Shown: piece after piece, positions 631 through 64,000 of the stretch
How the letters are laid out: each line of letters starts with the position of its first letter
Position numbering within the stretch: position 1 is the stretch's first letter
DNA from: Perkinsus olseni
Lineage: Eukaryota > Perkinsozoa > Perkinsida > Perkinsidae
Length of the DNA stretch: 64,000 nt
Direction: 5' to 3'
Assembly (NCBI GenBank): GCA_013115135.1
Contig: JABANP010000158.1
Span: 1-64,000 of the forward strand
Notes under the pieces: model-generated
Told to the model about the DNA's origin: nothing
What the model saw: only the letters and a program-made list of their open reading frames with translations
The model's database searches: none
Position numbers and translations under genes: made by a program

Positions 631-3134
631 CTAATAATGACGGTGGCACCGGCGGAGCTGGAAGACGTATCCTTCACTGAACCTCAGAGTCCATTCGTCG
701 TTGGTTTCAAGTCGGAGTGTCGTTCGTTCGGGAAGCATAGGCTCCATTAAATAAGCGTGCAGCCCAGCCTCGAAGAATTGCATTGATAATCGGCCTCTTT
801 GTTCTCCGGTTAGAGCGTCCAGATCTAGACTCAGCTCCTTGCTCCCATCATAGATAGAACCATTCAGTGGTACTCGGTAGGGACAGACGGTCGGCAGAGA
901 CGAGGGGAACACGAACGCGAATGAAACGATCCACGGGTTGTTATCATACACGCGCAGTGTGATGGCGCCGAAACCATGGGAAGCCGTTGGAGTGCAGTAA
1001 AAAACAGGACGGCTGTCACTTCGATCATGCGGCAGTCCTGGACATGATTGGCCCTCTTCCGACCTCAATCTGAGAACAACACTCTTGTGGCCTTGAGAAG
1101 TTAGGTTGTGATAGTCGAAGTCCAGACGAAGGTTCCTATCAGCGGCGCCATTTCTTCTCGTTTCATCCTCATAGAGCCTCACGTTGAAGAAGCTGTACTT
1201 CTGACCATCCGCTGATGTCGGGGCGATACCTCTCGCCGACGCCATGCTTGCCAAAGTCGACAAGGCATGCAGCCTATCATCTCTTGATAGGGTGAATATT
1301 TCTAGGTAAAAGCAGTTGGACGAAGACATGCAAGAGTCCCGTCGCAAGGGAATGAGTGCCGTCTTCCTATTCGCCCATCTAAACCTCGCCTTTTTGATTT
1401 CATTTTTGCGGTCTGCTTCACTGCTCACCGCAAACTCACTATCCTCGAACTTCAGTTCAACTGCTAGTTGCTGGCCATGATGTGAGACCTCGACAGAGAT
1501 GCTATCATTCACCGCTCCATCAAGCCCCATTCTCTCATTGACGTAAACGCCTGGCTTGATACTAGCCGCTGCAAGGGCTTCGGCACTTGGCTCGCCAGAG
1601 GGTGTTCGGGTTTGGGCTTCACTTCCCTTCGAAGCATTTCCAAAACGGCGCTTCAGCTTCGTGAACATTGACGCTGATGTCACTGGCGACACTTTCCGTT
1701 GCTTGCCGTGCCGAGAAGGACCTTTCACAGAAGCTTTCTTCCTGACGGGAGACTCGGAGTCCCGCGCTGTAGCCGTTTTCTGCACAGGACGCTCACATGA
1801 CTTACGAACCTTGCACGACGACGGATGCTCCCTCGGAGATGATGCTTCACTGGATTGTACCGAAACTGGCGAGGGATTGCTGCTGATGCTTTACCATAGA
1901 GGAAATTGAACGTTACCAAGACGGATCCTCATCGACGGCTTCGTGAAAACCACTACTGGTGTCTGCGGCATTTTTCGACCCTCGTTGAGCTGCTCGACGA
2001 CGTGCCACAAACCGGTTTCTTTCGGGAGGCTGTACCTCACAAGGCTCGTGCCTCTCCTGTGCACCTTCATCTCGTCTGTCTCGCACCAGAAACCATTAGA
2101 CTTTGTCGCCTTAACAATTATTCTTGATTCATCGAACTTAACTTTGGTGTACACTTCCAGACTGGTAAGGTGTCGTAGATATTCCCGAGGAATATATGCT
2201 TGATACAACTGATACCCATCTTTATAGCCCTCCTCTCGTTGCCGCTTCTGCAGCACTATATCAGCGTAATGATCACCGTTATCAGCTTTCAACAGGCCTG
2301 GGGAGTCTGGAGGAAGCAGAGGGAGAACACACGAGCAACGATTCCCATTTCCGCGAGGTAAAAGACGGCGTCAGCTTCGTCCACCTGTATTTCATAACAC
2401 TGTCGCTTGCCACTCGAAGAAGTCTTTTTCGCCATCACTATTGGCCCTATGTCAACCGTGTTGTTCTCCTCGGCGCCGAACCTCATCCTGCATTGCAAGG
2501 CACCACCATCAGCTTTCATCTTCTCAACCATCATTTGAATTTGAACACCCTCGTCCGATACACCCTGGTAATATCCATTTATGTCGATCACCCTTTCATC
2601 ACGATGGAGCTGGACAACAAGACCTTCACCAAACTTTATCGTGCTCGGTTGAAGGGGACGAGGACACATCAGAATGCTTCCGAGCGGCACTGCTCTGTTG
2701 CTTTCATAAGCCATGATAGCAGTCAATACATCAAGAAACCGTTTCGGCTTGGAGACGATAGTGGCGACGTCAAAGACGAAACGCCCGCCACTTCCGGGAA
2801 TGACGAGAAGACTTCCAGTTTGGATTGGCTTAGTATTATTATCGGACATCTCCAAGGCGAGGCCTATGGTCGCAGGCTCGTCATTCACGCTAGATCTCAT
2901 CGTCACACGCGCGACTCCGCGCTCACCAAAGGCGGGCGGCAATGACCCAACACTGCTGATGAAATACCCGTCCGCGGCCAGGAGATCGTCGTAATTATCC
3001 TCAGCGTTCGGGAGTCTTAGCCCACTATTCCCCCCTTCGTTTCTTGTGGACGCCACGGCTCCTAATTTCGTGGCGCGTGACGATGATATGAGCCAAGACG
3101 CGATGAACAAGATACGACCAAGTCGTTGAAGCAT
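631..3134 (-). CDS. Secreted multi-module beta-rich protein, lineage-specific, three exons
   Basis: I recognise no named family. The start at 3134 opens a good signal peptide (MLQRLGRILFIASWLISSSR), so the product is probably secreted or surface-exposed. The upstream in-frame ATG at 3254 would bury that signal. Three open blocks (about 3134-2325, 2290-1917, 1865-631) join in frame: an intron of about 35 nt lies near 2291-2325, and a 51-nt GT-AG intron at 1866-1916 removes an apparent stop and leads straight into the last block. A module beginning G-Y/V-Y and followed by alternating hydrophobic beta-strand-like segments seems to occur three times: DGYFISSVGS, INGYYQGVSDEG and SIKPGVYVNERMG. 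The later two are each followed by a C-Y/F-x-E-I segment (QCYEIQV, NCFYLEIF). The third module follows a basic, Ser-rich linker. The structure is inferred; splice sites need transcript support. Confidence 0.6.
1866..1916 (-). other. 51-nt GT-AG intron joining two open blocks
   Basis: The donor follows CGTCTTG and the acceptor precedes TTTCGG on the minus strand. Splicing here keeps the frame and bypasses the TAA that otherwise ends the upstream block, turning two apparently separate ORFs into one protein. Confidence 0.55.
3064..3083 (+). repeat. Intron-family A core (antisense to the host gene)
   Basis: AATTTCGTGGCGCGTGACG is intact here. In the minus-strand gene it lies just after the signal-peptide coding sequence. 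It is either translated (SSSRATKLG) or forms the 3' end of a 54-nt intron that would start at gtatcttg. Confidence 0.6.
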
Positions 3135-4827
3135 ACGGGTTCTATGCAACTGAACTAACTCGTATAATAGTGACGTGGCCACAGTCAGACACGACCGCTG
3201 TGATTGTAACATGTCCTCAGCTAACGTGGCATCATCACAACCAAGCTTAGCCACCTAGGTCATCATCTCGGCACGTGTGTCGGTTCGAAGTCCAACACCG
3301 TCACCGGCTTGGTTGGACACAAACCCGATGCCGACTGCTGTTACGACGAGCGGAATAAACCAACTACACCATCATTTCGAGACAGGCTATCGAACCCACG
3401 AAAAATCGCTACTCCGGGACCGAAGTATCACCCTCCCTCATAACTTTAGTGGAAGAAAGCAGATTCCACTAGTCACAATCATGGGTCCGAGGCTTGCTGT
3501 AGGTTTGCGAAGCACTGAGGATATCATAAATGTCCTCGAGACAGAGGAAAACCCATCCGCGCTCGAAAACCGGTGAGGAGCGCCCTAAAATGGCTCCGCC
3601 CGCTCTTCGCTGGGCCGCACGTCTCGAGGACCTGGTGCCGAGGCTTTCCTGTCCGCCCGGGCACCTCCTTAATCGTGAACGCCATAACGTGATCTAGCCT
3701 AGTAACTTAAAACCACACGAAGCCCGCTGGTCGACACAGCACAACCGAAATCGATGGTCAGTGGTGCGCTATAACGGTAATCTCGCCACCTCCGATGGCC
3801 GCCCTCCCTTAACCTGCCACTCTTAACAGAGTAAGGCATGAGAGTTGCCCGCAAAAATCGCTGAGGCGTTGCAGTGAGTCTGACTAGCTTGCTCATTCCC
3901 TTCTTCGTAAATCGCTCTTCCGTCGGCCCCCTGCGTGTTGCGTCACTTCCTGTGCCGGGTAACACGTGCTTGAATCCTTCGATCGCTCACTCGATAGCTC
4001 CGTAATACGAGGGAGAGGCAACAAGCCAGAAAGAAACTCCAATGACCGGCCATATTAAGCTCTAGCCCTGTGTTGGCAGCTTTGGCCGCTGCGAGGGGAT
4101 CAGATCCTTCCACGTGCAAACTAGCAAGGCCACTCATTTGAACTCACATTCGGCCCAACGGTCATTGGTCTAAGAGTAAGGACAGGCTTCATTCTTGATG
4201 AATTCGGATATAAACCTGTGAGAAGAAATAGGGAAGGAAATTTCTCCGCTCGAATGTATCCCTGAGGAAAGCTTCTTGGCGAACCGTCTGTTTGAACTGC
4301 ATATCAACGCTACAGAGAGTCACTAACTGCGCACACCGGCTTCGAGTCAAACCGAGCCGGAACAGTAAGCGTTGGACTATAAACTCACACACACAGAGGG
4401 AAGGCCCCCAGTGACAACACCACACCCTATCAGCGTTAGCTCAAACAGTCTCTCGTTCAATCGGGACTCCTCTGCCGCTCGGGAGCACAAAAAGATCAGT
4501 GGCATCGAAATTGTCAATCGCAACTCCTCCGTCCACCTCGGATACAGGCAGGTCCTTGCCACTCGACTGTGATACCAACGACGCTCGAACCTAAGATGAT
4601 TTCTTTTTTTCCTTCGCTTCCAGGAATTCTCGAGAGCCCGAGGTGGAAGGATAATTCTCGACGGAACCCCCAATGCGAGCTCGGTCTCCGTCAAGGACTT
4701 TACCCAGGATGAATCGAAGAAGCGGTACGAAAGGAAGCACATATTCGCAAAGCACGCACTGTGCACTCGCTATTCGACTCAATAAACTTCCACGAATGAA
4801 TCCAACAATATTGTTAGTTTTACATGC
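3135..4827. other. Gene-poor stretch, no supported gene
   Basis: Only short overlapping frames on both strands, without recognisable motifs or a consistent exon chain. Possible promoter of the gene at 631-3134 and 3' flank of the gene ending at 4828. Confidence 0.4.
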
Positions 4828-7800
4828 CTAATAGCAGTAGCCTTTGAATAGATATTGCAGAAGACTGTGATCATTAACACCCGGCCTCACCAAATGCTGC
4901 ATAGCCACAGGGCCGGGCTTCACACCAACCAGCGCCAACCCCGCAAGCTCCTTCTCAACTCCGGGAAGAAGCGTTACCGCCCGCGACCCCGACCAGCCAC
5001 TCAAAAATGCTCCCCATTCGGCTGGTGGCGTGACCACGACTTGAACCCGGATCGCCTCCTTGACAGTCGGCTCTAGCTTCATGCGGATCCGCATTTGGAC
5101 GACCTCGCCGACGACCGCCACGTCTTTCTCGAGAACAGTCTGGACGACTACTGTGTTGAAGTGACTACTTAGGTGTCTCGCCGAGGGGGTTGCCAGATTG
5201 CCAGGGCTCGGAGAAGCTGCCGAAGGTTTAACTGGTATTTCAAGCATCACAACTGGGAAACTATCAACACGCTGAACCTCCACAGGAGGGTGTTTCTCAA
5301 ACGGAGGAAGCGCTGGTGACAGTGAAACCGTCTCCTTGATCAAGAGTCAGCCGCCTCGGTCACTAGAAACACAACAAGGTCAGGTGCTGGACACAGGAAC
5401 AACATGGTCACAAAGCACGCCCACGACTGCATCCTCAATGACCATCATCTGATCAGCCAATGAACGAGTGGCACGCTAACGCAGGGTTACCTACGGACGA
5501 CCCTGCGAACCGCTCGTGCTCTATACCGAACAGTGTTCAGTATAGAGAACGAACGTGTTCAGTGAACACGACATGATGATTGATCGGGACGACTGCAACC
5601 TCGTCAACGGAATCTATGTTTTACTTGCTAGCATCCCCCAGCACACTAAGACCTCACTAGAAGAACACAACAGCTGGCAGTAGTATGATATCGCACAGGG
5701 TTGTACACGGAAGGGCATGGAAAAGGAGGCAATAGCCTCCACAGGACAACAACTCTTGGCTAGCTGAAATACGCTCGGCAAACGGCTGATGCATAGGACG
5801 ACTTCTTCTGGTTCGTCGAGGCTAATGTAGCGAGAACCTTCCCACAGAGGTCGCCTCGTGCCATCGCTGCAGCTGTGGCCGATGGAGCCGCTGAACTACT
5901 CTTGGAGGAGCCTCTGAAAGAGACAACATCTGAACACTCCGGTTTAGAGCCTCCCCGCGGTGATTAACCATCGGGGCTTCCTCGGAAGCGCAAACGACAC
6001 AGCCGAGCCGAAATAACAGGCGTCCTGATGACCGTGAGAGCGGGCAGATCATTCGACCTGCTTACGGGCAGCCCTCCTGCGTGATCGTCACCGATCCTCC
6101 TCGCCGAGAAACCGCCAGTTTCACATCACCAGACTCGAAGTGGCACGAATGCGTGCCTTCCCCTCTGCGCAGCTTCGCATCGATCACTTTCTAAGAAAAA
6201 AACTTCGTGTATCAAAACTAACTTCGCTCCGCCGTACCTGCGTTTTGCTATGCTTGTTCACAGAAGGGCCTCGGACAACAGGAGCTACTGTTGGTTGGGC
6301 CTGAAAATCATACCACAAATCCCGCAAATCAAAGGAATCACAAGCAAGAAAACCCGTGCAGAGACAACAAAATTTCCTCTCCTAAACTTGCCTTCCTCTT
6401 CGCCATCTCAGCCTCATGCCGCCGCCGTAGCTCGTTGACATAGTCGTCCTGGATCGCCCGCAACTCCTGCTGTTTTCGGTTGTGCATCTCCAACTCATCC
6501 GCTGTCATATTTCTGAACTCTGGACTCTGGCACATGTCCGTGATGAAGCCATCCGGCGTGACGTCGGCAGTAAAGCGGCCTTCCATTAAGAATGGCGCTA
6601 GCACGGAGCCGCAATACCAGCGGACGTTATGCTGGAGCTTAGTCATTTGTGCTGAGGGAACGGCTACCCGACGGGCTCTGAGGAAGGGAACAAACCGAAT
6701 CTACACCGTACCACTTTCTGCTAGTCCCCACAGACGGATAATACGATAATAAACTAGAGCTTTCCAAAATACCCAAAACCGACCCTGCGAGCTCTACGCG
6801 CCACCCCCTCCTCTCCTTCACTCACCCAGCTTCAGATGGGCACTGTAGCAAAAGAGAGAAGAAGTAATGATGCTTCCTTGGCGATGCAAAAACCTCTCGA
6901 CTGATCTTCACACTTGCCTTCCTACCGCCAGAGGTATCGAGGCCTTCGAGGCTGCAGATCCCACCCGTATTGCGAACCTACCCAGCAGTCGTTTATGGTT
7001 AGTCCAGCGAGGCGCTAGGGAGGTCAATGATTCGGATACACCAGCGCGAAGGACGGCAAGCTAATTGTGTTTAATGGGTCAACCAATCAGAGCGTCAGAA
7101 AATCGGAACTACTCACGAAACTCTCATATTGCTAAGGTTGGGGGTTTGAAGAACAGTGTGTAGCTACGCTCTGACATGTTCGGCCCTCCATCAGTGTCAG
7201 AGCCAGCAGCGGGGCAGTAGCCTGTGTCTGCGGTCAACACTGAGCGAGTGGCCATCACTGTTCAGTAGGACACGAGAGAACTGCCCGACTCCATACCCGG
7301 TCCGGGTCGAGTCAGCGGTCTCTAGTGTTCTACCTCCACATCCAGGGAGCGGAGAGCTGACTTGAGCTCGCGTCCATCATCATCACATTGCAATGATCAT
7401 GACCATCACATCTGATGGTTGCACCCGTTGCCAGAGCCCTACTAGCTCTAGCAGCGAACGCCATTGAAGTACTGCGGCCTTGGCCGTACAGCCTACTGCG
7501 CACAAACTTTTGTACGCCGACGTACAAACGAACGAACTTTCCGCGCACGCCGATCCTCCTACGAGGGATTCACACCACATATCACACCCAGACATTGACG
7601 ACACTGGTGCAATGTGAACCCCAACATGGATGAGCTAGAGGAACCCACCTGCGTCTGCCACTGCACTTGACCATTGGCGGGAAGGTTGACATGGCAGATG
7701 TAGCTCAGGGCATGCGGCACCGTGATCACGCCGCTGGGGGCGAGCTCGCTGAGCGCCTCTATACACGTCCCAGCTCCTGCGAAGTTCTTCTCAACATTCG

Positions 7801-9299
7801 AAGAAATCCGAAGGTTCAATAGACTGAGAAGAGACTTCTATTAAAAATACCCCTCCCCGGAATCGAACCTGTGCCTTACGGTTTATTTCTCTGGTCCACG
7901 CCGGTATGCCGATAACACTTAGCCTTTGCACCCCAACCACCCGTTGGTAGTCGCTCAACTACCAACTCTTGTTGTCTATTGGAGTCCCACACTCGACACT
8001 CCTTCGCGTCAAATAATTTCTGAGAAGAACAAAAGTATCTTCCTGACGACCACGCCTGCTGCGAGAGAGTCACTCCAGGGAGAACCCAGTATGATTCAGT
8101 CGCTAGCCTATGCACGTTGGTATGGCTGCGAGTAGCGCTCGCCCAGTTAATCGATTGCACTAACGGCCAATATCAGAGCAACCTCGTCCTTCACTTTCCC
8201 ACAGTGTTCGAATGAGACGTCCAACTGAATTAGCATAAAAATGATCCCCACCTCCTCCTTGGCGATCTCGAGCCACTTGGGCAGCATGATCTCCCGGCTG
8301 CAGACCTCCTTCACAGCCTCGGACACAGTAGTGACGTTATTGGATACCCACGACCCGACCAGCTGACTACACTCCAGTCGGTGATTCAACTGCAACATCT
8401 CCTTCCCTAGCTGCATCGTCTCGGGTGGGGTTGGGAATCGGAAATTCCTGAGGACAATGACATCTCGTAACTTCGCCACTCGCTTCCACACCCTCTATAG
8501 TAATGACCATCATACTGTTAGGAATCACGACTCAGTAATGTTGACGTAGCAATGACATCACTCTTCAACAGCTAGTGTCCTGACCCTCATTACCGCGGGT
8601 GTTGACGACCCGGCCTCTGACGCTCCGGGCAAGTCCCCCACGTCACCACTTCCTTCCCCAATCTAGCCAGCTGGACCACAGTAACAGCCTTTCCATGCTC
8701 CACTAGCACACAGTTGGAGGTGGACGCGAAGGCCTGTCAACAGCCACCGCCGATCTACACGGCCACAGCGGCAAGGAAAACATGGTTGAAACCAGTAAAC
8801 TACTATTTTCGAATGCACCGTTCTATCAAAAATACTTTTTTTCGCCAATGATAGCAATACACCTCTACAATCAGAATGATCGAAGCAACCCCGAAGCAAC
8901 AAATTATAAGATTCATCATCAAGACCAGCCCTCGAGAGCACCACATTACTCACGACAGGATTACCCCTATAACGGATATCGGCAACCCACTCCTCGCATG
9001 CATCCCCATTATCCCACCTTCCTCTCCTTAATACCATCTTTCCACCACTTCGGCGTCTTCACATTGTCACAGACCCACGCAGCGATGCCCTCCGGCCGAG
9101 TGGCGGTAGCAGTCGAATAGCTCATGAACACGGACTCGCACTTCATAGTCGATCCAGTCTCAGCGGCCTTCGCTGTGCGGACCACCTCCGTCGGAGCGTC
9201 TTCCTTCACCTCCACCATCTTCCTACAAGCAGCCCAGAGTGAATAGCGCGCGCCCCAGTGATCGATAAGCATCCTCCTGCTCACCCCAGCTTCCAACAC
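4828..9299 (-). CDS. Unassigned multi-exon gene with coiled coil and beta-sandwich-like C-terminus
   Basis: I do not recognise the product, and whether all exons belong to one gene is inferred. Exon-like blocks on the minus strand are at about 9299-9009 (ESVFMSYSTATATRPEG), 8960-8860, 8720-8640, 8491-8147 (WKRVAKLRDVIVLRNFRF), 7819-7630, 6646-6399 and 6185-6060. The last open block is 5343-4828. The 6646 block ends in a charged coiled coil (QQELRAIQDDYVNELRRRHE) and appears to use a GC-AG intron: AAG then gcaagt, with an acceptor before GCCCAACC. The next intron (about 47 nt) carries a family-C core. The terminal block has alternating hydrophobic strands around VVGEVVQMRIRMKLEP and TPPAEWGAFLSGWSG, reminiscent of Ig-like or trafficking-subunit C-terminal domains. 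Function unknown. Confidence 0.4.
6219..6233 (+). repeat. Intron-family C core, antisense in a minus-strand intron
   Basis: ACTTCGCTCCGCC lies inside a GT-AG intron of about 47 nt. On the minus strand the intron starts gtacggcggagcgaag and ends ttcttag, between exons reading NKHSKTQ and KVIDAKLRRGEGTH. Confidence 0.65.
7850..7945 (-). repeat. tRNA-like element (family D), sense to the host gene
   Basis: On the minus strand the B-box GGTTCGATTCC is followed by a GTATTTTT run. About 60 nt upstream is a D-arm-like CAAAGGCTAAGTG. There is no paired acceptor stem, so it is not a functional tRNA. It lies between two exon-like blocks of the unassigned gene. Confidence 0.55.
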
Positions 9300-10425: not shown

Positions 10426-11232
10426 CCGAACCGCCCTGCCATTCACTATACCATTGGTTGTGGTAGTACTGGTCGTCGTTGTAGTGGTCGTGGTAGTTGT
10501 AGTAGTTGTGGTAGTAGTGGTTGTGGTCGTGGGAGTAGTGGTAGAAGTGGTAGAAGTGGTAGTGGTCGTGGTAGTAGTTGTAGAAGGGGTAGTCGTGGTA
10601 GTTGTAGTAGTTGTAGAAGGGGTAGTCGTGGTAGTTGTAGTAGTTGTAGAAGGGGTAGTCGTGGTAGTTGTAGTAGTTGTAGAAGGGGTAGTCGTGGTAG
10701 TTGTAGTGCTGGTCGTGGTAGTCGTCGTGGTAGTGATAGTGGTAGTTGTAGTGGTAGTTGTAGTGGTCGTTGTGGTAGTAGTGGTTGTGGTAGTTGTGGT
10801 AGGAGCAGCTGTTGTGGTCCTAGAACTGATGGCGGTCGTAGCAGCAGCGGTGGTGGGTGTACTGGAAGTGACGGTAGGGGTTGTCGTAGTCACAAAGGGT
10901 GTGGTTGTGATGGTATGAGTAGAAGTCGTAGGAGGTATCCTAGTAGTGGTTCTAGGCATCACGCTACTCGTCGACCTACTGCTCGATCTAGGCGTGGTCA
11001 CGGATGCAGTCGTCGTGGCACTCTGAGTGCGGAAGCAACCATAACAACAGTCCAGCCCGGCTACACTCGGAAGTGGGACGAAGACGAGCCGTTGACAAAG
11101 ACATCCGACAGACGAGCCGTCCAAGACTTGTCGGTCGAGGCCGCAATTTCTTACCTCATCATCATCGTCATCAGTAGCAGGGACAGTGGTAATCCCTTTT
11201 GGTGGCCGCCGCATGCCCATGAGAAATGGCAA
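10426..11232 (-). CDS. Threonine-rich mucin-like protein (partial gene)
   Basis: The minus-strand frame encodes a region of more than 150 residues made almost only of Thr, with PST spacers, preceded by a mixed Ser/Thr/Pro segment (SATTTASVTTPRSSSRST). Such tracts are typically heavily O-glycosylated in extracellular or wall mucin-like proteins. A GT-AG intron at 11023-11154 removes a Cys-containing stretch and joins an Asp-rich segment (PATDDDDDE) to SATTTASV. The exon ends at a clean donor (CGG then gtgagt) at 10425, so coding continues downstream on the minus strand. No signal peptide is visible with the ATG at 11232, so the true start may lie further upstream. The complementary Val-only frame is a shadow of the repeat. 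Confidence 0.55.
10580..10711. repeat. 33-bp coding minisatellite, four tandem units
   Basis: Four near-identical 33-bp units start at 10580, 10613, 10646 and 10679. On the minus strand each encodes the 11-residue unit PSTTTTTTTTT. They sit inside a longer degenerate ACN-codon tract. Confidence 0.85.
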
Positions 11233-11463
11233 CCTGCACAGGATAGACGGATATTATCGATCCAACTTTAACAGATGTACGGGGTTCGGAAGCTAACCTA
11301 GTTAGACTTCCAGTACCCGCCATCAGGACAGGTAAACTTCCACCGGGGCCCACGCAATCAATTCTTTTGTAGTTCGCCAAAAGCTACAGATTGTTTGCGC
11401 AGTTTTCAAATCAACTTACGCATGTTGATACTACCGACTGTGATGAGCGACCTGGGAGGGTGA

Positions 11464-21751: not shown

Positions 21752-24700
21752 TTATATTAAATAACAATACAGATCTATGTCGGATTCACGGTATGAAAGT
21801 CCTTGGGAAGAAATAGCCAACAACTTTCGGGTCGTCATTGCTGCGGCACAATGCACATTCATTACGTACTCACCAAAGGGGGGGCCACCACCACCCAATA
21901 CAGCACGTCTAACGTGCTCAGACCAGCAACACGCTGACACGCTTTGATATCATCAACACACGTCCATCAACATAAATTTACGTATTATTAATGATCCTCT
22001 ATTGCTACAACCATGGACGATACCCACCTGGTCCACTCGATGTAGGGCTCCGTCTGTCCGCTACTAGTAACAACAGGATCTAGTCGCAGCACGCGGCCAA
22101 CACTCCGAGCCAGGTTCTTGCAGGGCTCCATGAGGAATCCAAACTCGATGCTGGCAACCGGCCGACTCCACCGAGAGCCTCGGTACCTGTCGAGTGAATG
22201 CCCAGCGGCGACGCCTAAAAATCCCTCCTGACCTCAACGGACGATCGTACGCGGGATCGCCGCGCTTCGACGGAGGCATGGCAGGTGGCTCGGGTGCTGC
22301 TGCCCTTCCTCTCGACCAGGGGCGGCGAATCTTCGAAGGCTGATGAGATGACTCGGCAAACAGCGACGTTCATTCCCCTACAAATTCGCTTTGGTGGTGG
22401 TGTTGCTGCTGTGGGTGGTGTAGCCTGCAAGGTCGGTAGTGGTTGAGGGTCCGCTGGGCTCCTCACGAAAGAATGCGTGTTCCACCGCACCTCGCAGGCG
22501 CCCCAATTTCGATCCCTGATTGAATGGGCCGGCCTATGGTTAGCTATGGACGCCCTCCTACCTGAGGTGGCCCTCGAGCTCTCTGGCTGACCCGGCCTGC
22601 CGTATCCGGAGGTCGACTCTGGCCGGTGACGAGAATGGTCCGTCCCCAGAAGGAAGATACCTGCGAGAACAAAAAAAATGTGAGATCAAGAAGCTCTGCC
22701 GTCTGCCAGGGCCAACCTTCATAGCATCGGCGATTCTCCTGATATCATGCTTGAAGTCAGACAAGAAGGAGGCACTCCGTAGTAGAGCACGATACACCGG
22801 GTTAACCTAGAGGCGATCGTCACAGGCTGCCGATGGCTCCCGAGCTGCTACATCCTCGACGAAAGTCTTGGCCAGGGTGGAGGGCGTGGCGAATACCGCA
22901 TTTCCGCCGCCTTGTTGGGGTAGGGGAGTTGATCGCGATCTCCGACATGAGCCGGTCGTTCACAACGCACTCGAACAGGACGACCAGCATGTGCACCTGC
23001 AGCGAGCAACTTCAGGGAGCACTCGAGGCAGTTCCAGGCAGCTCACGAAACTGTAAATTTCCGATGAGTTGAAGAATTTCCGGTCGTCTTCGCCCTCCAC
23101 CAGCATATCCTCGCAAGTGCCACTGACGGCTGGATGCGTGAACACCACTTCCATGAGGGGATAGTACCTGGGAGGGGGAGGCCGGACCTGAGCCAGGGGA
23201 ACAGAACCAGCAGTCGCCTTTACAGTGGTAACGCTTCCATGGTCACAGGGTTGCGCAGTAGCCGCTGCATCGCTGTGACGTAGTACGGCCATACATCGGC
23301 CTCTGCGGTGGAGGTGGTGCCCAGCCAGGAGCCTTGACAAAGACGATGATGAGCTGAGGGGGTCCATGAACGCTTACCGGCTCCCCAGGGCTGCAGCAGC
23401 ATGATCCAGATCTTGATGAGGTACACGGCGGTCTCGCTGCTCACTGACGAGGAGGCCGCCGATTTATCCTTGCAAAGTTTCCTGTTCAAAAAAAGGAAAA
23501 TGTTGAGCGGAGCGAAGCAGGGAGATGCTCACAAGTGAAGTAACTCCACGATGGAGGGTAGGAGGACTTGACACTCCGGCGGGAAGGAGGGGGGCAGAGG
23601 CGATCGGCTGCCGTCTCGGTCACCGGAAAGCAGCGTCCACTGAGATGGCAAGAGTGATGACACAGTGCAGTAGGGGACATTGAAGCCGACTGGGTGCCAG
23701 GAGACAGAACAGAGGGCGAAGCAGCCAAAGGTCGCTGTGGACATATAACCCGAGGCGAAGACCATGGGAGATGGGAAACCGCAGACACGATACGGCGTGG
23801 CGCTTCAACGATCAATTTGAAACACTCACGAGCGGATGCCGGCGACAAGCCGATAGCCTATGGTATTATCTCTCTCACAGATTGCTTCGCTACTATTCCT
23901 ATGGCCACACGATCGCCCAGAATAGATTTGACCTAGCCTTGAGGCTAGGGGGGAGTATCTTACCTCCTGATCAGACATTCCACCGAAGGCTGTTGAGCCT
24001 CGAACTTCCTCGGCATCCATCGCGGTGATGGAGGCTGAGACACAAGACAGCATCAGCATGCTCGACGGCGAGGCAGCCACTACACCGATTTCACGATGCG
24101 CAGTCGGAGATTCCGGCAACTTAGACGAAAGTAGAACTCCTACTGTCAAACCTGGCTTCGGGCAGCCGCGAGTGGATGGCAGGCCGATAAGGAAGAGGCT
24201 GTCACATGAGATCGAAGAGCCGAGAGAACGTTTTTTACGCGAGCGACTCCCGAACCCATCTCATTGTAAACTCTCTGTCCCTATTCTGGCATAGGGAAGA
24301 CACTATCACAGGCTCACCTTTCAATGAGTCCAAGGCCAAGACACGGATACACACCGTCCGCAATGAGCGTAGCAAGGGCACGTCTAGCTTCATTTGGGCC
24401 ACACCAACAGGGCCACTCAACTGCGGGGATATCCAGAACGCTGTTACCAAATGCACCAGCAGGAGGCCCTGAACTCGACTGGACTAGTCGGCACTCCCCT
24501 ACTCCCTTACCATGCGACGCCTGTGCTGCTTTTCTTCGGGACTTGTGCTGTCAGACTCCCCTGAGGTCATAGGGGTTTGGTCGAAATACCTATACAGACC
24601 ACGTCTGGTCATCTCCGACTTCCGGCATCTCCCTCAGCGACGTGCACGGACACTCACCTGGCAAGATACAAGTCCAAGAGCTTGTCGTAGGCGTCCGAGA

Positions 24701-25867: not shown

Positions 25868-25899
25868 TATCTGCGGGAGATAGGCCAGCAGCTCCGAGT

Positions 25900-28152: not shown

Positions 28153-30591
28153 TCTCGGCCAGGGGTCATCGTAGCAAGGGTTGATTCCCGCTTCAACAGA
28201 GCGCCTAGGGCCCCGAGGTAGTGGGCATGACGGAAATAGAGGGCCTTCATGCGGCCTCCCGTCCAGAAGTTGAAAGACGACTGTATCGAGCTGAATACCT
28301 GAGCGAGGGAATCTTAGCTTGATGCGTGCAAAAAACAAAAGATACTCCCAAGCAAGTTTGTCGACCTACCTGCAGCAGGTGAGTATCCAAAAGATACCCC
28401 ACAAAGACCACATTGTCGATGCCGTACAGGCTCGCATGAAGATACGCTAACTGAGCTGTGTTCATGGACATGAGGTTCATCAAGGACCTCGCTATCTCCG
28501 AGCTTTTCACCTGCCGACCATCAGCATATTGCCCTGCCATCTCTCGGTCGGCATTCCGCTTACATGCTCTCGTTGTTCCTTGTTATTAGCCTTACCGAAG
28601 CTCGAGGCCACAGTGTTGCCCTTGAGGCCTATGGATGGATAGTCACCGCCGTAGATGTCCGACACCAGCAAGTCCAATGGTGAAAAATCACAAGTCTTGC
28701 CGCACCGTAGAATATCTAAGAATAGTAAAACCGGGAATCGAACCCACAACCTACGCGAGCGCAGCCCGCTGGTCTAACCAACTGAGGTACCTGCAGGTGT
28801 TCTCGAACACTTCGCTGGAAGCATATGCCTGGCCATCCCCATCACCGTCGCCCCGCCTATCGGAGACCCTCCCACACGATACATCGATCTGCCGGAAAGC
28901 ACAGTCTCTCCGAACGCAGTCTGGCGTCCTCATCATTACGTTGGTGAATCCACTCTGTAAAAACTCGTACCACTCTTCATGCTAACCATAAGAAACGGAA
29001 AGATACTCTGGAACCTCTCCGAGTTCACAAACTCCATTCCCTCGACCAACTCGGAATTAGACGGCAAAGACCCCGCCAGATTGACCCCCTAAAAGCAACA
29101 CTAGAAGATCAACCATCAGCCCCGTCTCCTCCACTACTGAGTCCTTCCCGATGTTAGGGAAGTAGAAGCACTCTGAGGGACATGCCGCAAAACGTAGTTG
29201 ATCCCAGCCAGCACACAGGCCGACTCACGATGCCGCTCGCACCTTGCCCCCAGTGAGCGCTCGATAGCTGACACAGACGAGATGGTTGGACTTGGGCGTC
29301 GGATGAAGTCCCAAGTACAATCCTGCAGCCTCCATACACCGCTCCCTACTCCAGCAAAGGAGTTGCTCTTACTCTTCCTTTTGTAGTGACAGGAGGTACT
29401 GGCCAACCTGAATGAGAATTCTGCTGCCAATCGGCTTGGGAATGATACAAAAACGGCGCGATAACCCACTGACTAGAAAGGCCACCCCGGCCGATTAACG
29501 CTCGAACTCCTCCCAGAGGTGGCAACAACCTCCAACGTCACCAAGGGACCATTAAACGCGTTCTCTCAGCACCGACGGATATCGAGCACTTCCATTCATA
29601 CCGCCAGCGATCATCCCAATGGTGAGGCTGCATCAGCGACTCCTAGTGAATCCTACCTCTGTTGACAGGAACTGTTGTGTATCATTGAGGTCGAAGTCCA
29701 CGAATCTTATCTCGCTCGCATCGTCCGTACTCCTTATTGTCCAATCCTCCATCCCTTCGTTCCACTCACTAGACGCTAGGGAAGATGCTTGCGACTCCGT
29801 ACTGTCAGCCGGACTCTCGGCGGGGCTCTCATCGCCTACAGTGCCAGGAAGTATCAAGAAACTGTTGCGCACCTCTCCCAAGAAAAGCGTGTAAGTTTGG
29901 AATTCCCAAGATAAATTTCAAGTCGAGATTCGCTATAATGTAGAATTCACCCCTGCACAACCAATTGCCCTCTCTAGATGTCTCGTACCGCACCATCCAC
30001 AATAATTGCTACGACAAGGACTTTGCTCGAAGGCCATACAGTTCAATAGGCCCGAACACAACAATTCATCTTCCGACTAGTACAGGAGACTGGAGATGGA
30101 CTGCGAGGAGGAGTTCTATCGCCAAATCGGTTAAGATGGCCCGGTGGTCCAACACCGTCTGATAAGCGGAAGGTGTGGTACGCGGACTACTGCTTCAGTA
30201 CCGGCTGAAGCAACATATACTATTGTCATTTGTCAGTCCGACTCCTTCCTCTCGTCGATAATACCTCAATCCCTCGAGCGCTGCCTCGCCCTCCTAGCTA
30301 ACGAATCATGCGTACAACGCAGGTCGATGCTCGTGACTTGTACGGATCACTTCCTCATAACAATTTCCAATCTCTACTACATTATCGACGACGCAGTAAC
30401 AACCAAACGCCCCGCCGCCGCCGCCGCCCACTACTACTGCTTCCTGCGGAGGCGTGTCTATGCGACCGTCTCCGTCCGGCCAGAAAACTGAGGTCAGTTG
30501 GTATGGGGCAGTCGTCGGTGCCGGAGGCCCGGACGCGGACTGCAATTTTACCGATGTTGCCGCCTAGATCCACTCCGACGAGATTACCCAT
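28153..30591 (-). CDS. PANK: Pantothenate kinase (eukaryotic type II PanK)
   Basis: PanK phosphorylates pantothenate, the first and usually rate-limiting step of CoA synthesis. MGNLVGVDLGGNIGKIAVRV at 30591 is the N-terminal ATP-binding G-loop. Later exons read EIRFVDFDLNDTQQFL, SACVLAGINYVLRHVPQ, IGGATVMGM (the G-G-G-T-x-x-G equivalent), SPLDLLVSDIYGGDYPSIGL then VASSFGK (signature D-I-Y-G-G-D-Y and A-S-S-F-G), NVVFVGYLLDTHLLQ, and finally SFNFWTGGRMKALYFRHAHY and LGALGALLK, matching the C-terminal W-S-x-G-x-x-K-A-L-F-L-x-H-E-G-Y-F-G-A-x-G-A-L-L. An in-frame upstream ATG at 30657 exists, but the family start fits 30591. One intron (28716-28790) is a tRNA-like element. The recognised part ends at a donor at 28152; the terminal exon was not identified. 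Confidence 0.88.
28716..28790 (-). repeat. 75-nt intron of PanK made of a tRNA-like sequence (family D)
   Basis: The intron starts at gtacctcagttggttaga, a canonical tRNA D-arm/A-box, continues through an anticodon-arm-like GCGGGCTGCGCTCGC and the T-arm GTGGGTTCGATTCCC, and ends ttttactattcttag. Splicing it out restores ARHMLPAKCSRTPAD/ILRCGKTCDFSPLDL in the PanK frame. The acceptor stem is missing, so it is not a working tRNA gene. Confidence 0.8.
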
Positions 30592-40700: not shown

Positions 40701-57528
<16,828 letters not shown>

Positions 57529-57651
57529 GATCTGGAGGGAGTTGGAGAGCGGCGAACTTACGTCTTGGGAGTTCTGTTGTTTGTTTCCACTTGGTCTTGA
57601 GGGGACTCATCGGTTGCGTTACAGTGCGTCACATTCTGTCATGGACTAGGG

Positions 57652-57666
57652 TCAACCTAAGATTCT
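57652..57666 (+). repeat. Intron-family B core in the 5' leader of the Cys-rich gene
   Basis: GTCAACCTAAGATTC followed by tctcag, a plausible acceptor 18 bp before the ATG at 57689. Suggests a leader intron. Confidence 0.55.
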
Positions 57667-57688
57667 CTCAGATCTCATTGCTGTCGTT

Positions 57689-58781
57689 ATGTCCACGTTT
57701 TATGCACTGCTATTTTTCGATATCGTATTTTCGTTTTTGATGGTTGGGGTTGTGGCGAGGAATGTGGAATCGTCTATCGACGGTTGCATTTGGATCGAAG
57801 GCCTGGGCTGCGAGTTGGGCTACGGCGGTGAATGCTCTTCCTACTTGGCGCAGGTTGACGCCACTCTGCTCAACACAGTGGACCTGACCTACTACGAGAC
57901 TCTCTGCCGCACCTGTTGGTGGTTCGAGTCTGAGGAAGCGTGCGCGTCCATGGAAGAGTGCGCTTGGGATGGCGCTGGGTGTATGTACCCTAAGAAGGAT
58001 CTTCAGGGGGTGTCTTTGACCAGCGAGGAGTACCATCCGAGCCTTATCTATAATGAGATACAGTCCCATGCCGTGTGTAGCAGGATTAAGGAGGAAGATA
58101 TCTGCTTGCAGACGCAGTCGTGCCTTTGGTCGTCCGATAAGATGGTAGGTTGATTTTGGGGTATGATAGAGCGAGAACTTATAATGGCGTTGTGCAAATT
58201 GGGACTTCACCTAACTTACTCTGAGAAGCTCGGAGAACTATTCTCAGCGCCCCTTTCGGTGTTCGTTTCGGAGAGACTTTGTACGATTTCAGATGGGCCT
58301 AGGCTGGAGCCTTGAATAGGTGTCGGGACGGTGATCATTATCGCGAGACTTCGGTGCTTTTGTGGCCGCTCACGTCGGGCTGGTCCGTAGGCACTTGTAG
58401 GCCTATGAGCGTCGCTTCAAGCTCGTGGATCGCGATAAGGAAGGGGCGTTTCTTCTCCTCTCCGATTTGTTGTTGTCCCTTCAGTGCATACGGGACATCT
58501 GGAAGGTCATGCAGGACTGCTGCGAACCTCTGCAGCCCATCACTGACAGAGCGGAGCAATGCAGGAATCGCTCCAGCTCCGAAGTCTACTGCCTTACGTT
58601 GAGTGAAACCTCAACGACGACCATCTTAGAGGGATTAACTACCTCCTTGCCTGATGGTGTCGACACTAATACCACATTTTCCACAACTAAGGGCGTTCAG
58701 CTGATCACTGTGCCTGCTGTGAGCAGCAATACGTCACAGTTGAGTGGACCCTCTACCGCTACGACAGTGGCGCCTACTTGA
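57689..58781 (+). CDS. Secreted cysteine-rich protein, copy 1
   Basis: Not a known family. The first block (57689-58144) starts with a hydrophobic signal segment (MSTFYALLFFDIVFSFLMVG) and continues SIDGCIWIEGLGCELGYGGE, YYETLCRTCWWF, CASMEECAWDGAGCMY and ICLQTQSCLW: at least a dozen cysteines, many as C-x-W pairs. A phase-0 donor after ATG (gtaggt) and an acceptor at 58400 lead to AYERRFKLVDRDKEGAFLLL, SLQCIRDIWKVMQDCCEPLQ and QCRNRSSSEVYCL, followed by a Ser/Thr-rich mucin-like tail to TGA 58779-58781. The 256-nt intron may hide a further small exon. The start is the first ATG before the signal peptide, 160 bp after the HECT-ligase stop. A damaged relative lies at 62587-63261, on the other side of TRAPPC13. 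Confidence 0.7.
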
Positions 58782-59240
58782 GTTCAAGTGAGGTCCTTCT
58801 TCCCTTTCTTGTCTATTTTCTGGTGTAATGTAAAATTTGATATGTAAACCCATTTTGTCGGATGGCAACTCTATTATCATGGCAGTCGTCTTTGAGTGTT
58901 TTTGAGTTGACATCGAGCTTCCTTGAGTTGGGTCATCATGGTCTTCGACAAGAAATATGATCCTCTTTTCGGCAAACTCTGCGGACTCCGTAGCTTCGAG
59001 CAGTACAAAATTTGTACAACAAATCTGAGAAGTCTGTCTAGCGGGCCTCAGCAGGTTCTATATGTGGCCACATTTGTTACTGCCTCGGAAATTCGTCCTA
59101 TTGGACGCTGGGCTGAGGCCTTCCAGGAAGCGGGTCGCCGTGGCGGAGACTTTTCGAACCAGTGGAACCTTCATTTTTTCGGACTGTTATTGAAGGACGT
59201 AAAGCAGTCGGGTTGCAGCTTTGTTTTTTACCCAAGGGTG

Positions 59241-62174
59241 ATGCCGAGTCGGGACCCGATCGACGTGAAGGTTATGCGGGTCAGTCAGATGCACCAGGCT
59301 CTGCCTGTTCACCCCATCATACAGGCATGATTCGTATCTTACATGCTTCAACCTAAGATATCTGGTGTGCTTTAGGACTGCCATAACCCGCTTCTGGGTG
59401 TGGAATCTTCGAGGAGATTGGAAGGTGCATCGCTCAAGTTACCCCGAGAAGTGAGGTAGTAGTCTTAACGCCTGCGTTGTGAGTTCCTCGTCGAGAGTGC
59501 CCCAAACTAGTGTAAGTTTAGAAAGAACTGAGGGATCTTCAATAGAAATTGCTTGGGATAGTGCCACTGTCTTTGTGTATTCTGAGATTATTCTATCCGC
59601 ACCGGGGATCGAACCTGAGTGGTATCGTGCTTGGAATTCTTCCCCAGAAAAGAGCGGGGGCTTATCTTACGTTGAACGTTTCGTCGCGTTGTATGAGTTA
59701 GTATTTTCCCCGTGTCGTGCTTCCTCCGCTTCCAGCCAGGCTCACGCTCTCATTTCTTGTCCGTGCGAGATGGGTGGGGTATCTTCCACCTTCGATGGGA
59801 GTATCTTTTCTCAGTGACATGCTTCGTGGGTGAAGCCTTTCAAGGATACATAACAGTCGCCGTTGACAGTCCGAACATAAGCACACTCTATAATGTCACT
59901 CTTAGGGCAAGCCGCAGGAAACCGCAAGTATCTTAGGTTGAAGCATGCACTTCACAGGTCAATCTATCGTGCCCGGCGGTGGGTGAGGAATCTGTCAGTC
60001 TAGTCGACACCACCGACCATCCCCTCCGCGTCCTCGCGAAAGAGTGCCCTGTCGAGCAAGTGGTCACGACCAGAGGAAAGTTCGTAAGCGCTGGATGTCT
60101 AGATTGGCCTTCCCTCGACTTCTCTCCCTCAGTCCCTCTCTGTCCCTTCGATACACATACTACAAGTGCAGATAACGTGAGCCGTGTTGAGCCTCTGCCG
60201 TGCTTCGCTCCGCCTCGATTATTTACCATTTTAGATACACTCTGTCCCCTGACGGAGAGACGCTGTACTTTAAAAGGAGCTACAAGTTCCCTGTTGTCGC
60301 CCCTCTGGCTGTTCACCATGAAGTGGTTCAACTGGACGTAAGCTCACGGACGACCGAAGCGTATCTTAGGTTGAAGCTTGTCTCAGACGCGACTTTTGTG
60401 TAACGTCACTGTGACTAACACTCATCCTACTGCGAATATAGCGATCTTTGATGCGGAGGTCGAACCCATCCCAGGCTTCCTCAGTCAGCCTGTTGGTGAA
60501 ACGAGTAAGTTGGCAGCTCCATTGGGCAGCTCTGGGAGGGCAAGGGGGCGATGCGGTTGAGGCCGCAGCTCGAAATCATTTCCGATTCTCTTCTGATCGA
60601 TTACTTATTGCAACTGAAAAATTAGTGATGTCTCATACCCGCTCTTCTGGGTTGAATTGATGACTAGCTGTGCGGAATTTCCCGAAATTAGGATTTTTCA
60701 AATAGGGAATGTCACCGGGTATCCACACTGTGAGTTCGCCCTTGTCGCGATTCTGAGCCAAAAATCGCAACCTCTTGAGGGAATGGGAACCCGCAAGACG
60801 CTCCCCGAGGAATGTCGAATCGAAGCTCTCCATGCTGGTGATTCTGATGGATTGGTCCGCATAGCGAAACTCTCCTCCTTTTGGGGTCAGACCTGTTCAT
60901 ATTCCGCTGCCTTGTTGTTGTGGACAAAGGGAAATGGGATCCCTACTGTGCTAGCGAGCTAGTGATCAGAGGGAATCCGCTTTTTGATGGAACGGGACTG
61001 CCGCCTCTGGCCTTTCTCAGGGAGTACTCACGTGTTGGCACCGAAGGAGGCCAATGCGGCCGAGTACGTATTCCAGCTTAGTCCTCGCGGAAGTAGTGTT
61101 GATATTAACTATGTAGGTCGCGTTTCGAAGTCCAGTCATACCACAACTTGGACAAATCTAGGTACGACAGTTGGCATCCTATGGCGTGTTCAAGTATCAA
61201 TGGCGATGTCCACAGCTGGGCAGTGCGTCTGACTCGTTACTCGGCGTGCAGCAGCAGCTGGATGTGCGGCCTCTGCAACAGCAGGACCTCGATCTACGAC
61301 TGGTGAGTGTATAAACACGGCAGGGTAGAGTGGGATGGATCTTCACGCATGAACGTTAATGAGTCGCTTGAAAGAACCTTTGAGGGGCAATTTCCTTCTC
61401 GAAATTGCTGTCGCTGATTTTCTTGTTCAAATTGCTGTCACTGATTTTTTTCTTCAAGTCGTTGTCACTGGTTTTCTTTTCGAAAATGTTCATTTACTCG
61501 TCACTATCATTCGCCTTGAGCTCGGCTGATCACCGAGATGCTCATTACTAATGAATCATCAGCTCGTTTTGTTCAGCAAGCATCGAGCTATGATGCCGCA
61601 GTCTCGTCGAACGTCAGTGGCCTGCCCGAAGGAGTCCTCGCGGCTACTGTAGAGAAGCCCTTTTCGATCCAAGTGGAAGTTGTTAACAATTCTGAGAGGG
61701 ATGTCGCTGTGGCTATTCACTACGATGTTGATGCTCTGGGAGAAGTACAGATAGCCGGAGCTACGGAGCAGACCTTAGGGGTAGAGTCTCGTGGTCGAGT
61801 TGAATGGGGACCGACGTCCGGAAAACGTATCTGGCTCTGAATTTACCCATGAGTATTCGGCAGAATGATCGTCACAGTTGCGTTTTTCGATTGTCGCTTT
61901 TTCCCTTGACGACGAATCGCCATTGACATAATACTGTCGTCTTCCGTTGGGCCAGCATCAGGAGAGAATGCTATCATCACCACCCGACGCTAGGCTGAGC
62001 ACTGCGTCTCTTCAGACGATACAAGCATTTAGCTCCCTGCCGTTCACCCTCTCCCTCTTCCCCTTCGCCCCTGGCATCTTCACTCTGGGCTCCGGCATGT
62101 CTCTGCGGGATAAGGAGACTGATGCTAAGTACCAAGCGTCACCGTTTGCTCAGCTTGTGTGTTTACCAGCGTGA
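59241..62174 (+). CDS. TRAPPC13: TRAPP complex subunit 13
   Basis: TRAPPC13 is a beta-sandwich subunit of the TRAPP tethering complexes in ER-Golgi and Golgi traffic. Exon 1 at 59241 reads MPSRDPIDVKVMRVSQMHQ, matching the family start A-L-K-V-M-R-L. Later exons: YITVAVDSPNISTLYNVTL; VNLSCPAVGEESVSLVDTTD; IHILQVQITYTLSPDGETLY then FKRSYKFPVVAPLAVHH, the best-conserved strand pair (Y-T...G-E-K-M-Y-F-R-K-F-F-K-F); TRLLCNVTVTNTHPTANIAI; VEKPFSIQVEVVNNSERDVA (family E-P-F-x-I-x-x-x-I-x-N-x-S-E-R); and the end GMSLRDKETDAKYQASPFAQ LVCLPA, stop 62172-62174. Introns at 60177-60234 (58 nt, family C) and 60338-60386 (49 nt, family B) are placed exactly by the frame. The first intron starts at GC or an unseen site: exon 1 runs into TGA at 59328. 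Confidence 0.8.
59345..59375 (+). repeat. Intron-family B core at the acceptor of TRAPPC13 intron 1
   Basis: GCTTCAACCTAAGATA at 59345-59360, then tctggtgtgctttag. Confidence 0.65.
59600..59630 (-). repeat. Antisense tRNA-like T-arm (family D)
   Basis: CACCGGGGATCGAACCTGAG within a TRAPPC13 intron. Confidence 0.55.
59928..59957 (+). repeat. Intron-family B core ending at an acceptor
   Basis: GTATCTTAGGTTGAAGCATG then cacttcacag. The likely donor is a GC site, AGG gcaagc at 59906, giving a GC-AG intron of about 51 nt before VNLSCPAVGEE. Confidence 0.65.
60177..60234 (+). repeat. 58-nt TRAPPC13 intron with family-C core, sense
   Basis: Donor ATAAC gtgagc, acceptor accattttag. GCTTCGCTCCGCC at 60202-60214. 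Splicing gives HILQVQITYTLSPDGE in the family frame. Confidence 0.85.
60338..60386 (+). repeat. 49-nt TRAPPC13 intron with family-B core
   Basis: Donor CTGGAC gtaagc, acceptor tgtctcag. GTATCTTAGGTTGAAGCTTG at 60361-60380 ends 6 nt before the splice site. Splicing joins HEVVQLD to TRLLCNVTVTN. Confidence 0.85.
61395..61487 (+). repeat. Tandem 27-30-nt repeat in a TRAPPC13 intron
   Basis: Three degenerate copies of CTTCTCGAAATTGCTGTCGC-TGATTTT plus a partial fourth, between the exon near 61300 and the exon starting near 61560. Confidence 0.7.
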
Positions 62175-62586
62175 CTGCGATATTTGTTTCACTACTCTCG
62201 TCGCAGTGTTGGGTTCGGGCCCCCCTTTGCTGCACCAGCCATTGACTCCTTATCGGAAAACTACTGCTTCCTAGATATTATTCGTTCGAAAAAAACTCTA
62301 TTTTCCGGCGAAAAGTACTCGAAAGTTCTGAAAAAAAAGCTCCGGGCTGTAAGTTCCCGGTAAGTTCGAAACTCGAAAGATCCCAACTTGTCAAATCTGT
62401 GCCTCATCCACTCGAGACTGAGGTCCTCAGTTAGCCAAAGGGACGTCTTCTTAGTATTAATTTACACGGGAGAGTACCATCATTCTGTCAACGGGAAAAT
62501 TGGTGTGATTTTTCTCGGCGCTTAACGTCTTGCGGGATATTATCATGACCCTGCTCGGTCCTCAAGTTTGGTTATAGTCATTCAAA

Positions 62587-63261
62587 ATGCTGCAAACAAC
62601 GTCCATCCTTTTTGTATTTCTCCCGACACTATCGGTCGAGGCGCAGCCGGCGGAGATCCGCTCTAGTGACGGCTGCATATGGGTTGAAGGGTTGGGCTGT
62701 GAGCTGAGCTACGAGGCTGAGTGCCATGCCTACCAGTCAATCGACAGGCCGTCGCTGTGGCCGATGCTGAATGAGCTAGATTGGCAGTACTATGAGAATA
62801 GGTGCTCCTATTGCCTTGGTTTGACGGATCGGGACACCTGCGTATCAAGCGAGATCTGCGAATGGTCGGCCGGAATGTGTTCTTATTCAAAGCATACGTT
62901 GGCCTCTAGAGCCATCCAGGAGCCCCATTCCGGCGGTGAGGATCGGGTTAGTTTCCTTCGCAGTGAAGTAGCAGCGCACATGATGTGCCAGAGAGTGAGG
63001 GAAGCGGAGGACTGCCGTAACGTTTGGGGGATGCCTTTGGGACACTGGAAGAGGAAAAGTGAGCGTGATAGCGTCTGCCGTTCGTGCCCGTCATCGCTCG
63101 TTCTCAGTGCCTGCGCGACATCTGGGCGGTGATGAGCTCCTGCTGTCCGTGGCTTCCAAGCGATCTACACCAAGGCTGACGTTTGCCGCAACAGAAGCTC
63201 CTCATATATAGCGTGCATCGGAGGCGCCGGAGAGGGAATGCCTTATTATTATGAACCATAA
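62587..63261 (+). pseudogene. Secreted cysteine-rich protein, copy 2, apparently frameshifted
   Basis: Related to the gene at 57689-58781: signal peptide (MLQTTSILFVFLPTLSVEA), SSDGCIWVEGLGCELSYEAE, YYENRCSYCLGL and CVSSEICEWSAGMCSY align with copy 1, cysteine for cysteine. After EAEDCRN the homologous GGCLWDTGRGK lies in another frame. QCLRDIWAVMSSCC matches copy 1 (QCIRDIWKVMQDCC), but the following FQAIYTKADVCRNRSSS is again shifted by one base. The segment corresponding to AYERRFKLVDRDKEG is missing. Either it is decaying, or unrecognised introns or base errors explain the shifts. The uninterrupted frame from 62587 ends at 63132. Confidence 0.55.
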
Positions 63262-64000
63262 TCATCCGTTTCTTGTGGACTACTTTTTATGGCCTGTTCA
63301 AGGCTTGCTGGTTACGGATTATACTGCCCAACCAGTTCTGTCTTCTGGCAATCTTCTTTACGCAGTAGGACCATCGGCTGGGTGTTGGGTTGTCCTAGTT
63401 CCGACGGGTGGGACTCAGTGGCGCCATTCTTCCCTGAGAGGGAGACAGTTGATTGCCTTACCAAAGGAACCGAGGTAGATCCGAGCACAAGTCAAAAGCA
63501 TCGATTGACGAGACTTGAACGGTGTTGGCAATAATGGCGCGCCTGCCCTATTCCGAGTAGGCTGCTGTCAAAGCCTAGCAAGTGGACTCCTCTGTGTGTA
63601 AGGTACCTCTACTTGCCTACTACTTCTAGTGATTGGTCAGTCTTTGAGGAGATACTAAAGCCTGTGTGCTCACAACAAGGCACCACCCCTGACCAGTTGC
63701 GGGTACTGCCCCGAGCACACCCGTCTGGTCTCTAGCCTATCGCTAAGCTGGAAGAACCGCTTGGGTTCGATGCTCGCAGTGCTACAGTGAATTTCGGTCG
63801 TTCGTTTTGCCTTCGGGTTGAGCTCTAATATGCGTCTCGCTTCGCTCCGCCGTCCATTAGTTTTTGTTCCGACTGTAGGGAGTGTTCAATCAGTTGATTT
63901 TTAACCTCAGAATTGATTTTAGAGACGCATTTTAGCGGTGAGAGTCAATTTAAGAAACTAAGAATGTTTCTATTGGGCACAGGGTGTCACCACTGGTCAG
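63262..64000. other. Unassigned right end
   Basis: No gene I can support. Frames at 63251-63534 have no recognisable domain. A family-C core at 63838-63851, followed by a T-rich tract and gactgtag, suggests an intron of a gene continuing past the window. Confidence 0.35.
63838..63851 (+). repeat. Intron-family C core near the right end
   Basis: CGCTTCGCTCCGCC, then a T-rich stretch and a possible acceptor (gactgtag). Confidence 0.55.

Follow-up and report, generated by a model that had tools for sequence, protein, structure and literature searches.

Can a repeat of some 20-odd bp become the seed of an intron? The question is raised by a 64,000-nt stretch of the genome of the perkinsid Perkinsus olseni (bases 1-64000 of contig C66, GenBank JABANP010000158.1; hereafter, the window), in which an initial annotation recognized four unrelated short words recurring in or beside ultra-short introns and read these introns as introners, i.e., transposon-like elements that generate introns. 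The words, 15-25 letters long and referred to here as cores, are real and far more frequent than chance would allow, and some copies lie in introns that are certain by homology. We consider the most likely explanation, at slightly less than an even chance, to be a variant resembling introners but based on repeats of unusual shortness, in which very short interspersed repeats that also occur in other non-coding DNA acted as seeds round which ultra-short introns formed. The origin of new introns is an old question; if it is true that pieces of this size seed introns of 45-55 nt, introns can be gained without a splice-competent transposon. Such gain could then be followed in Perkinsus, which is related to both dinoflagellates and apicomplexans.

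Families of very short dispersed words

The genome comprises 61.48 Mb on 968 contigs, and the sample analyzed consisted of the window, 20 random regions (10 kb each), 30 pieces (3 kb each) picked because the first word, c1, was present in each, and the PRP8 locus (L052), selected before its introns were inspected; together these make 335 kb once overlaps are masked. Apart from tandem repeats, k-mer counting in the window yielded four recurring families, c1 (AATTTCGTGGCGCG(YGAC)), c2 (GCTTCGCTCCGCY), c3 (GTATCTTAGGTTGAAGC) and c4 (GGTTCGATCCCC). With one mismatch tolerated for c2 and c4 and two for c1 and c3, there were 12, 12, 10 and 10 copies, respectively, a few of them possibly due to chance, and this total of 44 on both strands agrees with the roughly 45 copies initially reported. 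Exact matches across the genome numbered 1217 for c1, 1712 for c2 and 255 for c3, compared to 1, 3 and 0 for the reversed words, while c4, counted in a long form only, had 6. The window is rich in cores, with 44 copies in 64 kb compared to 31 in the 204 kb of the random regions and PRP8 locus, and is one of the places rich in c1 and c2. These two families cluster together: on contigs C1-C12, the sizes of three of which were guessed, 24 of 45 c1 copies lay less than 3 kb from a c2 copy, against 8.6 expected and a maximum of 16 in 300 random draws.

Profiles of the families read gAATTTCGTGGCGCGcGAc for c1 (n = 50 copies), GCTTCGCTCCGCt.t.gat for c2 (n = 23), GTATCTTAGGTTGAaGCt.G for c3 (n = 35) and gtC.cgGGTTCGATCCc.gg for c4 (n = 63). 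When 41 copies of c1 were aligned on an exact 12-mer, the likeness spanned approximately 18 bp and the flanks were unrelated; across the families, the shared sequence ended at 18-28 bp. In all 39 copies of c1, a base other than A (G, T or C) stood ahead of AATTTCG. An inverted repeat (GTATCTT...AAGATAC) was present in 11/35 copies of c3 compared to 2.3% of random places, and an inverted repeat was found in 3/42 copies of c1. Runs of T followed c2 (T5 in 7/22 copies versus 1.2% of random places) and c4 (T4 in 17/63 versus 2.7%), and could aid an acceptor. The c4 word itself matches the tRNA T-arm. The initial annotation recognized only four families; all four were recovered, but the larger sample contained additional ones, e.g., TTGAGGAAATGCAAGAT (c5) and AAGGAGTGGTATGA (c6). 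Copies of c5 often carry a second GCAAGAT (L038 4022-4651, L044 3397 and window 44962), and tandem copies of c3, spaced at multiples of 34 or 43 bp, are found elsewhere in the genome (C169:5464-5683, C95:31324-31441 and C147:59300-59874). No Rfam match reached the gathering score, and the four obtained at E<=10 were weak and unrelated; Pfam returned no match for 20 long open reading frames.

Cores in introns certain by homology and in predicted introns

Eight introns of the PRP8 gene are short (45-57 nt), one measures approximately 300 nt and one extends beyond the edge of the piece. Four of the eight short introns contain c1 or c3 (c3 in those of 51, 48 and 50 nt, c1 in that of 57 nt) at p<=0.002 by dinucleotide shuffling, the p values being those of the best-scoring profile out of seven, in whose construction L052 was not used, and uncorrected for the seven. 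Only 1 of 28 exon segments reached p<0.01 in the same test. The remaining short introns (45, 45, 47 and 50 nt) were not significant at 0.01, and one of them passes the cut-off of the c6 profile. Aligned with solved PRP8 chains, the spliced protein is gapless at IIIRNQVR|TEYRIAF, LNQTQR|EELSLIEQ and LWLE|ADQRML; around the fourth core-bearing junction, the sequence is poorly conserved. A 55-nt intron in the window (55732..55786, + strand), with c2 at 55745, interrupts a HUWE1/TOM1-like gene within its HECT domain, after ...YKHMLGKP, and the spliced peptide aligns without gaps to the HECT domain of TOM1. The protein is therefore unaltered by the intron at four junctions, three in PRP8 and one in the HECT gene. 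In both genes, the core-bearing introns certain by homology are GT-AG introns of 48-57 nt with c1, c2 or c3. A further locus chosen for its c1 copies, L014, carries a gene that we take from its peptide, read without a family search, to be antiporter-like, in which two c1 segments are readable as introns of 43 and 47 nt.

Donor-like strings crowd before c1 in both orientations. Genome-wide, GTGAG lay 4-13 nt before c1 at 59 sense and 39 antisense places, compared to 13 for the control GAGTG (sense only), and 4-30 nt before it at 100 and 71 places, compared to 40 for the control; the 100 sense strings hold near-duplicates and reduce to 70, and part of the control places overlap GTGAGTG donors. 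Given that 40 of 165 confident introns start with GTGAG, this excess leads us to estimate, very roughly, that introns hold about one in three c1 copies. Before c2 in sense orientation, GTGAG occurred 81 times at 4-30 nt and 42 times at 4-13 nt, where ~47 and ~17 were expected from a hand estimate on base composition made without a control search. Splice-pair scores at 164 core copies were also raised (p = 0.010, 0.025, 0.001 and 3e-7 for c1 to c4, respectively).

For a broader view, we used conservative gene models, with coding and splice-site tables taken from an intermediate self-trained model in which empty exons were allowed. The self-trained models themselves were dropped because of a runaway intron number, and their genes are excluded from all counts. 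Only GT/GC-AG introns were allowed in models and searches, and the predicted core-bearing set is biased by the length prior of the models. On PRP8, the conservative models (penalty 10) placed nine introns in L052, i.e., the eight short ones and the first 58 nt of an apparent longer one, and missed one long intron. Among predicted introns, 26 of 268 contained a core of one of the six families, where approximately 2 of 268 were expected from the cut-off by a hand calculation; these comprised 12/72 in the window, 10/188 in the random regions and 4/8 in L052.

Under strict and lenient models, the window held 304 and 339 matches to the six families per 100 kb of intron, 42 and 46 in exons, and 141 and 113 in the rest, in line with the initial remark that conserved exons lack the words. 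The corresponding values for the random regions and PRP8 were 118 and 108, 37 and 31, and 75 and 77. Introns exceeded exons in all four comparisons (p 8e-4 or less), and exceeded the rest in the window (p 0.01 and 1e-5). In random DNA, introns were approximately 1.5-fold denser than sequence outside predicted genes, which was not significant (p 0.07-0.09). Equal abundance outside introns, named as refuting in the initial annotation, was approached without being reached. The contrast between introns and the rest is likely understated because the rest must include missed introns. Nonetheless, cores clearly occur outside introns as well, and the initial claim that most copies lie in or beside introns was not confirmed: among 66 profile matches to c1-c4 in the window, in which the palindromic c4 may count twice, once per strand, just 12 (strict) to 27 (lenient) lay wholly in predicted introns, with 26-46 outside predicted genes, 6-9 exonic and 2-4 across borders.

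The window does hold core-bearing introns of 42-58 nt, as initially described. Those predicted to carry c1 in sense orientation measure 42 nt (45811..45852, +, core at 45823-45841, from the gene model only), 45 nt (53907..53951, +, a GCA variant) and 46 nt (47904..47949, +, lenient model only). Predicted introns with c2 in sense orientation measure 56 nt (48877..48932, +), 53 nt (49129..49181, +, where T runs follow) and 51 nt (23482..23532, -), all from the gene model, and one of 47 nt carries it reversed (6191..6237, -, copy at 6222). The gene model further places c4 in sense orientation in introns of 49 nt (45603..45651, +, tRNA T-arm-like) and 50 nt (53395..53444, +), and in reverse, with AAAAATGCC ahead of it, in one of 43 nt (53181..53223, +). 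Reversed c3 lies in predicted introns of 88 nt (45973..46060, +) and 71 nt (28299..28369, -); these two and the 47-nt intron each have one low-scoring neighboring exon. As initially described for most cases, the core ended within 20 nt of the acceptor in 14/20 predicted introns with a c1-c4 match; 5/20 were longer, at 71-103 nt.

Other copies in the window include those that delimit the initially reported range of 3064..63851, which opens exactly where a c1 copy starts (AATTTCGTGGCGCGTGACG, 3064..3082, +; assigned to no confident intron) and closes exactly where a c2 copy ends (63839..63851, +). A c3 copy with both palindrome ends (TATCTTAGGTTGAAGCATGTAAGATAC) was found at 59334..59360 (-) by profile and copy search, and another (57650..57666, -) precedes the start codon (ATG) of a gene for a Cys-rich protein, within what is weakly predicted to be an intron or a leader. 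Two Cys-rich proteins (DGCIWxEGLGCEL...; window 57650-58153 and 62578-63132) look alike by eye, and the two regions have no DNA match. In three-frame translation read by eye, the HECT gene shifts frame by one base at 55216-55345 and 56404-56475, in conserved places with no apparent intron, which may reflect assembly error, an allele or something else. A T-rich tandem repeat of 31/63 bp lies upstream of the HECT exons (47126-47255), and one frame of a tandem repeat at 10455-10802 codes for a threonine-rich stretch. Elsewhere in the genome, a 21-letter word, which we take to be the dinoflagellate/perkinsid spliced leader in its Perkinsus variant, has 85 exact copies, with C at the variable place in all copies listed, and forms regular arrays (C268:207896-235713 and C41:105064-118486; spacing ~1.75 kb and ~3.35 kb).

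Intron creation or entry into existing introns

We propose that several families of very short repeats (~18-45 bp), of which the cores would be the conserved parts, have spread in the non-coding DNA of this perkinsid genome, presumably as mobile pieces. Those of c3 would often be hairpin-ended, as would those of c1 now and then, and those of c4 would resemble a tRNA T-arm or B box, often followed by a T run. A piece landing in a coding exon could be spliced out by way of a GT and an AG close on both sides, and an intron hardly larger than the minimum that still works (~45-57 nt) would newly form round it, so that, as we infer, arrival made the intron instead of entering one already there. Core-filled introns in essential genes may then show the minimum size of DNA able to become an intron. 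A bolder joint proposition strikes us as unlikely, namely that words of 18-28 bp without splice sites of their own, smaller than the introners known to us, created a measurable share, a twentieth to a tenth, of the introns of this genome by recruiting flanking GT and AG, these fractions being the proportions of predicted introns with a core in the random regions and across the full sample.

Several observations weigh against the creation of introns by cores. No likeness across whole introns with splice sites at set positions was found. A whole-intron repeat comparison did not discriminate: scores >=16 were obtained for 23/156 introns, 63/780 shuffles, 95/468 exon segments and 79/468 segments outside, i.e., exon and outside segments equaled or surpassed introns. 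The core often lies close behind the donor, in either orientation, without a fixed offset; upstream splice offsets for c1 range from 5 to 32 nt and donor gaps from 5 to 30 nt. The rise of splice-pair scores above the null is moderate, with only 24-30% of copies above the 90th percentile of random places. In-register repeats of at least 5 at splice junctions, as expected of a target-site duplication, occurred in 1/21 core introns and 9/138 others (of the two L014 introns, one had been cut a base short in this test), and no fixed-length duplication round the cores exceeded the best of 20 shuffles, c2 merely equaling it. Two duplicates of the L014 region (93% and 97% identical, matching query bases 1-800 and 1-657 in one piece each) both keep both cores, and therefore no empty site or insertion polymorphism was seen in this comparison of one locus with two duplicates in the same genome; a comparison of paralogues for intron gain gave no clear case. 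To these are added the similar density inside and outside introns in random DNA and the estimate that most copies lie outside introns. The introner interpretation is partly supported: discrete sequence families appear repeatedly in short GT-AG introns, in both orientations and in genes unrelated to one another, with donors crowding before c1. Against it, the likeness is restricted to the core, the splice distances vary and duplications were absent from both tests.

The principal alternative, which we regard as possible, if doubtful, is that the cores are ordinary very short repeats that drop anywhere, are purged from exons by selection and enter pre-existing introns. The similar density in random DNA, the variable offsets, the mostly non-intronic copies and the clustering of families with one another would all be expected of such repeats, and the genome would even so hold an unusual collection of dispersed repeats of extremely small size. 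Predicted introns with and without a core had similar medians (50.5 versus 50 nt, p 0.45), but introns over 65 nt were more frequent among the former (6/26 versus 22/242, p 0.04), as entry into existing introns would have it. All eight predicted introns with c1 or c2 measured 42-57 nt, and six with c3, c4 or c6 measured 71-105 nt. Later entry therefore fits some c3, c4 and c6 cases, and these lengths favor creation for c1 and c2 while leaving later entry possible for some of c3 and c4. Moreover, the core-bearing introns certain by homology (48, 50, 51, 57 and 55 nt) show no 20-nt excess over the other short PRP8 introns (45, 45, 47 and 50 nt), and donors bunch 4-13 nt ahead of c1 instead of being spread, neither of which is expected if the cores entered introns already present.

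We consider it improbable that the cores are functional motifs, such as splicing aids, hairpins or DNA-binding sites, kept by selection in introns and spacers. Near-identical cores with unrelated flanks in the 41 aligned copies, the capacity of c3 and c4 to form hairpins, and the position of reversed c3 ahead of a pyrimidine-rich acceptor in several introns are consistent with a function; however, cores are found in introns in either orientation, no core is present in 242 of 268 predicted introns, the folding energy of core introns is not clearly special (mean z -0.02 versus 0.45, p 0.054), and the tandem arrangement of c3 is the behavior of a repeat. For c4 alone, there is close to an even chance that it derives from remains of tRNA genes or tRNA-derived short interspersed elements (SINEs) unrelated to the other families, which would be compatible with any reading of c1-c3. 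The T-arm match, apparent complete tRNA genes among the matches in L051 (by eye) and the T run after c4 point in this direction, yet ARAGORN and Rfam detected no tRNA in the window, and visual inspection of the listed copies showed no upstream A box in most of them.

Comparison with known introners and short repeats

A literature search on Perkinsus introns, genomes and transposable elements, judged by titles and the beginnings of abstracts with few subscription journals covered, found no such elements described, and one on DinoSINE and very short palindromic repeats found nothing relevant. The cores resemble miniature inverted-repeat transposable elements in being non-coding and, in some c3 copies, in having inverted-repeat ends, but they are far shorter and no target-site duplication was found round them. 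Similarly, c4 shares a B box and T run with tRNA-derived SINEs, but most copies have no A box by eye, and there is no defined body or tail.

Introners derived from transposons have family medians from 30 nt, and many families are without target-site duplications, according to the main text of Gozashti 2022 (PMC9860276), which makes no mention of Perkinsus; in Florenciella, both splice sites are supplied by the insertion site. Because some introners take their splice sites in this way and many have no duplications, a lack of own splice sites and of duplications does not exclude introners here. Like the introners in that text, the cores form dispersed families in introns of unrelated genes, but those introners are defined by intron similarity, whereas only a core of 18-28 bp is common here. 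We do not assign the cores to introners because end-to-end likeness is missing and intron gain is unproved.

The nearest case is that of the introners of Amoebophrya, an alveolate relative. According to passages of Farhat 2021 (PMC7789003), introns with introners in Amoebophrya are mostly non-canonical, measure 120 or 240 nt on average and have direct repeats of 3-5 nt at their borders, whereas the introns described here are GT-AG introns of approximately 50 nt in which no direct repeats were found. Shared with the introns described here are the short inverted-repeat motifs that those passages place within introns, and splice sites whose position relative to the hairpin motif varies (legend of its Fig. 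3).

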